Shown one piece after another: positions 1 through 43,265 of a stretch of DNA of 43,265 nucleotides; within the stretch, counting starts at the first letter, position 1; each line of letters opens with the position of its first letter. The DNA comes from a virus. Where the stretch lies: IMG/VR virus record IMGVR_UViG_3300033146_000838, positions 1-43,265 of that record; one strand, written 5' to 3'. The notes under the pieces were generated by a model. The model was not told the DNA's origin. It did no database searches and worked only from the letters and a program-made list of their open reading frames with translations. The position numbers and the translations under genes are program-made.

Positions 1-114
1 ACTAGATTTTCTTCCTTGTTGTTTTGTGGATTTAAATCCTTGTGATGTATCACTATATCTTCTTTTCCTCCACAAACTACACAAGAAGGATTTGTCTTTC
101 TTATTCTGTATTTC
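1..114. repeat. Left copy of 114-bp terminal direct repeat
   Basis: Bases 1-114 are identical to 43152-43265. This is the usual signature of a circular or circularly permuted genome assembled as a linear contig, giving a unit length of 43,151 bp. The repeat lies inside the HNH/intein part of terL, so it is an assembly overlap rather than a functional terminus. Confidence 0.95.
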
Positions 115-710
115 GCTTGTTGAAACTCTCGTGGATATTTGCTCATCCCCATCCCATGTTTGTAGTTGGGATTTTCCTTGCCCATCAATGTAGCAGAATG
201 ATAATCGTTTTTGCAATCCATCGAACAAAATTTTGTCAAATGACTTAATGGCTTGAATTCCTTTTGACAGAAAAGACATTTTATATTTTTTAATTTGAAT
301 CTGCTCTTTAAATATTCCTTTTTGCAATCTATACAATATTTGCTGTATTTTGTTTCTGGCTCTTTTACCCCACATACTTTGCACATTCTTTTGTTTTTTA
401 TTGCATGATGATTTCTTGAGCATTGTAGAGAACAGTACAGGTCTTTTTGCCCACTCTTTGCCGCACTTCTTATTTCGTGAGCATGTTTTAAACATTTTTT
501 CCCACAAAATTTGCATTCTATTTCTATTTTCGTAAAAGATAATTTCTTCTCCGTTCTTGCAATTCTCCAACGCCTTGTACCCTTGTCCCACAACGAAGAA
601 TTTGTGTTCTCCGGTAGCCTTAATAACGCTTCCTCCACTTGTGACAAGCTTACAAAGTCCTCCTTTGGTTTGCTTTTTTGTAGCGATGACTTTTTTGAAT
701 TCTGTTTCAT
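1..710 (-). CDS. HNH homing endonuclease nested in the +1 frame of the TerL intein (5' part)
   Basis: Read one base off the intein frame, the strand encodes a zinc-rich HNH protein. CxxC pairs occur in IECKFCGKKC, MCKVCG, YCIDC, CLFC and FCSMDC, followed by CVVCGGKEDIVIHHKDLNP (first HNH half) and, across the junction, NLVPVCRICHAKHHH. The first in-frame ATG after a stop is at 710, but homology-like sequence begins only near 545, where frame 0 is already past block B. Start choice is therefore unclear (ATG 710, TTG 593, or +1 slippage at the TTTT run 537-534). Pyrimidine-ending codons followed by AAN, AGN or GAN all end in C (20 of 20 by hand). Elsewhere about 59 of 66 end in T. This is what keeping the overlapping frame free of stops requires. 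Confidence 0.88.
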   Translation of the reverse strand, partial: MKQNSKKSSLQKSKPKEDFVSLSQVEEALLRLPENTNSSLWDKGTRRWRIARTEKKLSFTKIEIECKFCGKKCLKHAHEIRSAAKSGQKDLYCSLQCSRNHHAIKNKRMCKVCGVKEPETKYSKYCIDCKKEYLKSRFKLKNIKCLFCQKEFKPLSHLTKFCSMDCKNDYHSATLMGKENPNYKHGMGMSKYPREFQQAKYRIRKTNPSCVVCGGKEDIVIHHKDLNPQNNKEENL

Positions 711-1284
711 GAGTGTTATGATTATATGTTAATACATAACCATTGTACCCTGACTCGACGAGGGTGTCAATATCAATTTCTCCTTTGTCTGTAATAACTT
801 TTTCTCCTTTGCAAATACAATCAAAACCACGACCTGTAAGTCCACCACCAACACCAATAGAATAATAACCTCCCCCTTTGTTCGTTTCCCAATTACCTCC
901 TTCTTTCTTGTCATCAGCGAGAGCAAAAGCAGGAAATACATTGTGATATAATTCTTCTTTTGTCAAATCCCTAGTCTTTCTACCAAAGTCAGCAGCTAAA
1001 TCACTAGAGTAAGATGTACATACAATATTCTTTTCTGGATATTTCCCAAGTAAATAGGCAGGAAAACGTTTACTAATTATTTCCGACTTACCAGTCCTAG
1101 GGGGCATCTGCACGATTAATCGCTTTAACTCGCCATTTTCTATTCTTTCAAGAGCATCAAAAAGATCGTTATGAAACTTCTCAAAGACAAATTTAGGCAT
1201 TGTATAGTTTATATAATCCCTTAGGTGCATTTTAGCTAGTTTACGTTTAGCAAACTCTATTTGTGCTTGTTGTTGTTTATTCAT
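1..1284 (-). CDS. terL: Terminase large subunit, N-terminal part with intein (continues at 43151)
   Basis: ATPase and nuclease motor that packages DNA into the prohead. The ATG at 1284 overlaps the end of the TerS gene by 8 nt. Residues 1-155 (1284-820) are the N-extein. Walker A is PPRTGKS at residues 61-67, and the N-extein ends ...LTGRGFD. At 819 an intein begins with CICKGEKVITDKG (block A), with a block B T-x-x-H in ATGEHKFFV near 633-590. The frame has no stop down to base 1 and continues in phase at 43151. After splicing GRGFD joins CGIIDDPVKDR, giving a normal terminase of about 492 residues. The precursor is about 815 residues. The intein middle (about 537-1) is overlapped by an HNH gene in the +1 frame. 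Confidence 0.95.
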   Translation of the reverse strand, partial: MNKQQQAQIEFAKRKLAKMHLRDYINYTMPKFVFEKFHNDLFDALERIENGELKRLIVQMPPRTGKSEIISKRFPAYLLGKYPEKNIVCTSYSSDLAADFGRKTRDLTKEELYHNVFPAFALADDKKEGGNWETNKGGGYYSIGVGGGLTGRGFDCICKGEKVITDKGEIDIDTLVESGYNGYVLTYNHNTHETEFKKVIATKKQTKGGLCKLVTSGGSVIKATGEHKFFVVGQGYKALENCKNGEEIIFYENRNRMQILWEKMFKTCSRNKKCGKEWAKRPVLFSTMLKKSSCNKKQKNVQSMWGKRARNKIQQILYRLQKGIFKEQIQIKKYKMSFLSKGIQAIKSFDKILFDGLQKRLSFCYIDGQGKSQLQTWDGDEQISTRVSTSEIQNKKDKSFLCSLWRKRRYSDTSQGFKSTKQQGRKSS

Positions 1285-41968: not shown

Positions 41969-41996
41969 ATTATACCACAATAAAAGATTACCTCAA
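41969..41996 (-). promoter_or_regulatory. Late promoter for the portal-capsid operon
   Basis: Minus strand TTGAGG (41996-41991, in the last codons of terL), 16 nt ending in TGTGG, TATAAT (41974-41969). Predicted start 41962, about 35 nt before the portal ATG (41927). Confidence 0.75.
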
Positions 41997-43265
41997 AATA
42001 GAGCGTCTCTTGCTTCCGAGTATCTTATTGTTGTATTCTGCCATAGCTTTATCAGGTGTCAAGATGCCCCCCCCTCTTTCTTCCCACATTGAAACTGCCT
42101 GTGCTAAAACATCAGGTAGATCATCATGTTTATCCGCAGGAAACTTGAGTAATTGACGTTCTAATTTAAACCAAGTCTTGTCTGTGTTGTCATTTCTGAA
42201 ATGTAGAGCATGTCGGTTAAAGATAGGCTCTAATGTATATTTGATTCTGTCTTCTTTCTTACCTTTATTGACTGGTCTGAAAGGTAGCACTGTGTAAAAC
42301 TTACCAGAGTCCCTGATAGCTTTATTAAATCCTTTAGAGAAGTCCTGTTGTTTAGTAGATAACGATACTTCCTCCAGCGAGATGAAGTCAAGAGTCCAGC
42401 CAGCAGACTTCCACTTTTCAGCTAGGGAAATAACATAAGCGTAAGATTGACTAGGAGTAACAGTTTCTCCAAAGATGTCAAGAACATATATCTCTCCTGT
42501 CCCTTTGTGTTTAGCAGTTACTACGATAGCTGTATCATCTGAATACTTACGAGTTGAGAAAGCAGGGTCTATACTGATACCTATTGTAAAGTCTTCCTTC
42601 TTTAGGTCAGACAAAGCACAATAACGAAAATCTGATTTTTTAAATATCTCACCAGTAGATGAGATAGGGTCTTGTTGGTATAAGGCTGCGAAGTCACGTT
42701 CACCGATGGCGTCTCTCTGTTGTTCGTAGAACTCTAGTCCTAATCCTGGCCTGTTACATAAGGCTTCATTTTCTTCATTAATAGCAGGGAAAGAAAGTAT
42801 CTCCCAATTATCTCCATCTGTTTCTATAATACGTCCAGCTAAGTCATCTATGTTCCATCGAGTCATCAGTAAGATGATAGCAGAGTTAGAACCTTGCTGA
42901 CGAGTAAAGAATGTAGAAGTGTACCAATCCCATACTGACTCCCTTACTGTCAATGACTCAGCCTGTTGTCTATCTTTAACTGGGTCGTCGATTATTCCGC
43001 AGTTATGAGCCAAAATCCCATTAACAAAGAAATTATGATTGTCTTCTACTTGTAAATCGTACACATCCTCTTCTCCTTTTAAGAAAGTAATTGAGGAAAT
43101 GGTGTCTGTTTTGAGTGATGATGTTTCGCATGACATATCCGACAAACAGGGACTAGATTTTCTTCCTTGTTGTTTTGTGGATTTAAATCCTTGTGATGTA
43201 TCACTATATCTTCTTTTCCTCCACAAACTACACAAGAAGGATTTGTCTTTCTTATTCTGTATTTC
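41988..43265 (-). CDS. terL: Terminase large subunit, C-terminal part (continues from base 1)
   Basis: Second half of terL. Bases 43151-43002 encode the end of the intein, with block F/G motif GEEDVYDLQVEDNHNFF and terminal AHN followed by Cys+1. The C-extein (43001-41991, 337 residues) starts CGIIDDPVKDR (Walker B, IIDD) and goes on through LLMTRWN (coupling motif) to the RNase H-fold nuclease, with ISIDPAFS and a late KHDDLPD acidic motif. The gene ends at 41988. The portal promoter -35 lies in its last codons. Bases 43152-43265 duplicate 1-114. Confidence 0.95.
   Translation of the reverse strand, partial: EIQNKKDKSFLCSLWRKRRYSDTSQGFKSTKQQGRKSSPCLSDMSCETSSLKTDTISSITFLKGEEDVYDLQVEDNHNFFVNGILAHNCGIIDDPVKDRQQAESLTVRESVWDWYTSTFFTRQQGSNSAIILLMTRWNIDDLAGRIIETDGDNWEILSFPAINEENEALCNRPGLGLEFYEQQRDAIGERDFAALYQQDPISSTGEIFKKSDFRYCALSDLKKEDFTIGISIDPAFSTRKYSDDTAIVVTAKHKGTGEIYVLDIFGETVTPSQSYAYVISLAEKWKSAGWTLDFISLEEVSLSTKQQDFSKGFNKAIRDSGKFYTVLPFRPVNKGKKEDRIKYTLEPIFNRHALHFRNDNTDKTWFKLERQLLKFPADKHDDLPDVLAQAVSMWEERGGGILTPDKAMAEYNNKILGSKRRSILR
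43002..43151 (-). mobile_element. TerL intein, C-terminal part with splicing blocks F and G
   Basis: The last 50 intein residues. SSITFLKGEEDVYDLQVED and NHNFFVNGILAHN match intein blocks F and G, with the penultimate His and terminal Asn present and Cys as the +1 residue. These motifs are in the terminase frame (0). The HNH frame terminates at TAA 43081-43079, just upstream of block F. Confidence 0.93.
43079..43265 (-). CDS. HNH homing endonuclease nested in the +1 frame of the TerL intein (3' part)
   Basis: C-terminal end of the nested HNH gene, ending with TAA at 43081-43079. It contains the second half of the HNH fold (NLVPVCRICHAKHHHSK). At the AAAA run 43112-43109 a -1 shift from this frame would give ...HHHSK-TDTISSITFLKGEED, which is the expected smooth HNH-to-block-F join of an ordinary HNH intein. 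Bases 43152-43265 are the duplicated end. Confidence 0.88.
   Translation of the reverse strand, partial: KYRIRKTNPSCVVCGGKEDIVIHHKDLNPQNNKEENLVPVCRICHAKHHHSKQTPFPQLLS
43152..43265. repeat. Right copy of 114-bp terminal direct repeat
   Basis: Exact copy of bases 1-114. Joining the two ends restores one open frame for terL from 1284 down through 1/43151 to 41988, which supports circularity. Confidence 0.95.

Follow-up and report, generated by a model that had tools for sequence, protein, structure and literature searches.

The window, the whole 43,265-nucleotide stretch of viral DNA analysed here, comprises 43,151 unique bases and is a circular contig, as follows from a 114-bp direct terminal repeat (positions 1..114 are identical to 43152-43265). 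The terL gene lies on the minus strand and crosses the contig junction without a stop over 815 codons (1284 to 1, then 43151 to 41988), as had been claimed in the initial annotation. Its frame comprises a TerL N-extein (820..1284, minus strand) ending in ...GGGLTGRGFD, an intein of 323 amino acids (819..1 plus 43151..43002) placed by extein alignment between ...GRGFD and CGIIDDPV..., and a TerL C-extein (41988..43001, minus strand) starting with CGIIDDPVKD, which includes Cys+1 and the Walker B motif. The first part of the intein (1..819, minus strand) contains Cys1 (819-817) and block B with the TxxH motif, here TGEH (604..615 in the nucleotide sequence, minus strand). The second part (43002..43151, minus strand) contains the end of the overlap with the HNH gene, block F (VYDLQVEDNHNFFVNG), and block G with the terminal His-Asn (...ILAHN), followed by Cys+1. 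The joined protein matched Terminase_6N well above the cutoff, the Pfam intein splicing domain PF14890 with 72.8 bits (cutoff 35.8), and the NCBIfam intein end models TIGR01445 (34 vs 24.5) and TIGR01443 (37 vs 15.6), which bears out the earlier assignment of splicing blocks to both ends. No in-frame endonuclease domain was found in the Pfam scan, the terL-frame matches being limited to splicing and terminase domains. Judged by its residues and profile matches, the insertion is a class-1-type HINT intein, its splicing being inferred.

The frame at +1 relative to terL is open from 728 to 43079, directly after a stop at 731, and encodes the zinc-rich HNH protein; the third frame contains about two dozen stops over the same stretch. 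The HNH gene was delimited by the open frame, aligned homologues, and a start-site scan. It consists of a first part at 1..647 (minus strand) and a C-terminal part at 43079..43151 (minus strand), the latter encoding ...CRICHAKHHHSKQTPFPQLLS and ending with a TAA stop at 43081-43079, and the intein/HNH overlap spans the contig junction. A recognisable HNH in this frame had been proposed before and was recovered, with one correction: the stretch between 543 and 43079, previously given as ~535 bases, measures about 616 bases, and both frames are jointly open for ~800 bases. Group I introns often bear HNH genes, and one could suppose that the insertion is a self-splicing RNA intron within which an HNH gene is nested, the host frame being open incidentally. 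This is hardly conceivable, since no Rfam family matched anywhere in the window, both ends encode conserved intein blocks above curated cutoffs, and the host frame is stop-free in all lineages.

In an alignment of 20 HNH sequences, residues H201, H202, N214, H223, and H227 and the CxxC cysteines were invariant. Pfam HNH/HNH_3 models were matched by 13 of 17 family members at E <= 0.01, and PHROGs HNH families matched the family strongly; the window HNH by itself scored under the Pfam cutoffs. Profile searches of both frames therefore agree with the original reading, with intein matches in the terL frame and HNH matches, via family members, in the +1 frame. In some HNH ORFs, the N- and C-terminal ends look conserved, but they merely mirror intein blocks B and F and were rejected as HNH domains. 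AlphaFold models were built for a relative, L005, and not for the window protein. In the terL frame of L005, both ends form a HINT splicing domain with pLDDT >90, matching solved RecA and DnaB (mini-)inteins (E about 2e-6), and the overlap has pLDDT <50. The HNH frame of L005 is predicted to be an ordered multi-zinc protein (mean pLDDT 81), whose first 45 residues, the stretch overlapping the ordered intein part, are disordered. Comparison of this fold with solved HNH domains gave weak matches, none with E <= 0.001.

When the HNH of the window or of L005 served as a single query sequence, no relatives were recovered from viral or genome contigs, while alignment-based searches succeeded. A tblastn search with the HNH gave out-of-frame matches in the terminase genes of two phages, Clown (Gordonia) and S-EIV1 (Synechococcus), and their terL genes, on reading, have the same layout as the window. 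Profile scans found about 46 IMG/VR contigs sharing this layout; these include many near copies and correspond to 31 distinct representatives, the window included. Across the TerL-intein relatives, the HNH is always in host+1 and the host frame is stop-free, the overlap lies between intein blocks in every case that includes the ends, and the TerL site is constant, just upstream of Walker B IIDDP. Among S-EIV1-like inteins, the length of 337 amino acids is constant at up to 39% nucleotide divergence. No in-frame version of the HNH was found among its close relatives. In the HNH tree, the TerL-intein HNHs group together (5 changes vs 19.7 when shuffled). The tree is weakly resolved, and its reading as a single origin is unsafe because of long branches; a single origin of the TerL-intein HNHs is not ruled out.

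Several further loci were noted. The same element is present in the assembly of a Fictibacillus arsenicus isolate, on a short contig (L148:2678-4408); its TerL is apparently GC-rich, and contamination or a prophage is therefore possible. A phage DNA methylase (L039:3283-5790) has an intein-like insert (CLSEDTEILTINGW...FITGN) with an HNH relative in host+2 and is apparently an independent case of a hidden HNH in another gene. Two DNA polymerase genes (L044:1781-4480 and L108:1634-4504) contain a stop-free, ShiLan-like insertion that lacks obvious intein blocks and has its HNH in host+1. L058, L062, L103, and L132 have genes, mostly for DNA methylases, in which similar insertions likewise hide an HNH in host+1.

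The initial annotation had counted, at pyrimidine third positions of the HNH core, 20 C and 0 T where T would create a terL-frame stop, against 7 C and 59 T elsewhere; the recount matched exactly. For the whole HNH ORF, the numbers were 22 C/0 T and 10/66, respectively (Fisher P = 1.5e-14). Synonymous shuffling of HNH codons predicted 16.6 (core) to 19.6 (whole ORF) stops in the terL frame, none of which is observed, and 0 of 5000 shuffles were free of stops. The C-for-T count is not independent evidence because it merely restates that the terL frame is open. Independent support for dual coding comes from relatives, free-standing controls, a recoded relative, and substitution patterns.

In 19 lineages, risk sites had 335 C and 0 T vs 558 C and 787 T elsewhere. 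Open frames by themselves dictate this zero, so the information lies in how many stops would be expected, in the controls, and in L006. In 11 free-standing homologues, the bias was absent (127/295 at risk sites vs 294/627 elsewhere, P = 0.53), and the corresponding frame carries 4-43 stops. In the relative L006, TGA stands at positions where relatives have glycine (code 25 type), and both overlapping frames are open solely if TGA is read as Gly. Frameshifting of this sequence and reading of TGA as Trp were both rejected, since the aligned residues show TGA = Gly. At L006 sites where T would give TAA or TAG, the count was 16 C/0 T; where T gives TGA, it was 0 C/7 T. L006 thus avoids TAA and TAG and uses TGA freely, so that the stop constraint follows translation. 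Related phage terL inteins thus show recurrence of the overlap, in Clown, S-EIV1, and the about 46 contigs, and of the C-for-T bias, in the 19 lineages.

Substitutions were compared in 4 close pairs from one clade (S-EIV1-like), under an assumed transition bias and without the window lineage. Within the overlap, dN/dS was about 0.14 in the HNH frame and 0.79-0.93 in the terL frame, and HNH-silent changes that create a terL stop were absent (0 observed vs about 7 expected). In the splicing blocks the pattern was reversed, the terL frame being under strong purifying constraint and the HNH frame not. If overprinting is recognised by detectable selection in both frames, it is present in these relatives. 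The terL-frame product of the overlap is near neutral at the amino-acid level and constrained against stops in the S-EIV1-like relatives; keeping both frames therefore means an HNH protein and a stop-free spacer. The proposal that selection maintains dual coding is thus supported by the dual-frame substitution test and the recurrent bias, but not in the sense of two conserved proteins. Taken together with the L005 model, these data indicate that the terL-frame overlap is probably a disordered, unconserved spacer.

HNH nucleases occur in frame within inteins, and the window is one assembled contig, so an in-frame HNH intein broken by two frameshifts, through sequencing or assembly error or as a decaying pseudogene, has to be considered. 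It is already contradicted, with almost no probability left to it, by the register being identical in two cultured phages as well as about 46 contigs, by the HNH dN/dS of about 0.14, and by the avoidance of stops in every lineage according to the genetic code of the phage itself.

The persistence of the family in +1 may, by inference, reflect the possibility of writing it there without stops. Any protein can be written in +1 over a stop-free host frame because each stop needs a third-position T, which can be silently replaced by C, and no dipeptide forces a host-frame stop in this register. In +2, a Met residue forces a stop whenever the next residue is Ile, Met, Thr, Asn, or Lys, and at least one of these pairs occurs in each HNH tested.

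The best-supported start of the HNH in the window is TTG647; the upstream ATG710, the earliest ATG, is also possible. A Shine-Dalgarno-like sequence, AAAGGAGGA (658..666, minus strand), precedes TTG647 by 11 nt, a spacing on the long side. The start-site scan of the window revealed no ATG adjoining the HNH and no strong ATG start near its first zinc finger. An ATG with a Shine-Dalgarno sequence before the HNH was present at 9 of 19 loci vs 4.1 expected from synonymous shuffles (P = 0.008). For all three start codons, the result was marginal (14/19 vs 10.6 expected, P = 0.056). Internal initiation is favoured, and frameshifting is not excluded. Programmed ribosomal frameshifting (+1 or -2) would produce a TerL-N / intein-N / HNH fusion; both frames are on one message, and the lack of a strong ATG near the first zinc finger in the window is in its favour. 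We consider this route improbable, since ATG with Shine-Dalgarno sequences exceeds the shuffles at 9/19 loci, AAAGGAGGA is present in the window, and such a fusion would be unable to splice. A shared slippery site was not noticed, in the absence of a systematic search.

At the Walker B site, no intein is present in the two closest TerL relatives (57 and 61% identity); one of these, L145, carries a nuclease-sized intein, in frame, at Walker A. A natural deletion in L065 (988-1620) removed 126 overlap codons and most of the HNH and kept the intein/terL frame, showing that the phage can dispense with the HNH. The empty sites and this deletion fit a homing cycle without proving it, and homing is inferred from the patchy distribution and homology. 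The HNH could instead serve packaging or another phage function, with the intein as a mere parking place. Its location in terL and the weak matches of 7/17 members to a PHROG annotated as terminase small subunit are consistent with such a role, as are some phage HNH proteins that act together with terminases, as cited in PMC11855218. This alternative is doubtful, since in TerL the HNH was found solely inside the intein, which the nearest TerL relatives lack, and L065 has lost most of the HNH with the intein frame retained.

The locus is thus best explained as a phage TerL intein with an overprinted, separately made HNH nuclease over a stop-free spacer (probability about 0.86), in which splicing, cleavage, and homing are inferred. 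Ribosomes on terL would read through TerL-N, the intein, and TerL-C as one chain. The two intein ends would fold as a HINT domain and excise themselves just upstream of Walker B, restoring TerL, and the middle of the chain would be a spacer for which the sole requirement is the absence of stop codons. Translated from an internal start, in the register one base further on, this middle stretch of DNA would also give a separate multi-zinc-finger HNH nuclease. This nuclease probably cuts intein-free terL alleles, and repair would then copy in the whole element. The two frames, their recurrence, and selection on both are observed; internal initiation, like the activities of the products, is inferred. 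We would give slightly better than even odds to the broader view that such phage inteins form an old and widespread class, in which overprinting uncouples splicing from the +1 homing HNH and the constraint tracks the phage genetic code.

As a case of overprinting, the family is unusually clear, with dozens of replicates, free-standing controls, and a recoded relative with shifted codon avoidance. Annotation of the terL frame hides the nucleases: the Clown and S-EIV1 records have the TerL frame alone annotated over the overlap.

Inteins are taught as a splicing domain plus an in-frame nuclease domain. In the window, DNA but not protein is common to the two activities, so that the nuclease is freed from splicing and dose while the mobile unit remains single. 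The window intein resembles canonical class 1 inteins in Cys1, block B TxxH, blocks F/G with His-Asn, and Cys+1, and also in the location of the endonuclease DNA between blocks B and F, but its endonuclease is outside the intein polypeptide, in the other frame. Split inteins and fractured genes with free-standing endonuclease genes, reportedly described by Dassa et al. in 2009, likewise have the endonuclease separate from the splicing domain, whereas the window intein is a single continuous ORF and not two genes. Mycobacteriophage TerL inteins a-g are located in the TerL ATPase domain, as is the window intein, and TerL1-e is likewise in the Walker B motif region (PMC5050341). Gaia gp2, the TerL1-e representative, was rejected as a known member, being a different intein at another position with the nuclease-sized insert in frame; no +1 or +2 ORF above 90 amino acids was found in it.

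The closest described system is ShiLan (PMC11855218, 2025), in which an out-of-frame HNH is inserted in phage methylases and the authors find no splicing domains. The likeness consists in an HNH zinc-finger nuclease in the other frame of a stop-free phage-gene insertion, and the HNHs of ShiLan (E about 4e-5) and Mantra (1e-7) are homologous to the window HNH family. The ShiLan HNH is in host+2, as we checked, within a methylase and without splicing domains, whereas the window has host+1, a complete intein, and TerL. PMC11855218 cites for overlapping frames a 2025 preprint on non-canonical actinophage inteins by Gosselin, Arsenault, and Gogarten (bioRxiv 10.1101/2025.01.02.630785), which, judged from its title and this citation, may describe out-of-frame actinophage intein endonucleases, perhaps that of Clown. 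With this preprint outside the scope, no description of inteins built with an overprinted HNH was found in the open-access literature. The initial statement that no described family is built this way therefore holds for such inteins within that literature, but not for the out-of-frame HNH itself, already published in PMC11855218. An out-of-frame HNH in a phage gene is known from ShiLan and, although the preprint may overlap, the new element here is an HNH overprinted within a complete TerL intein.
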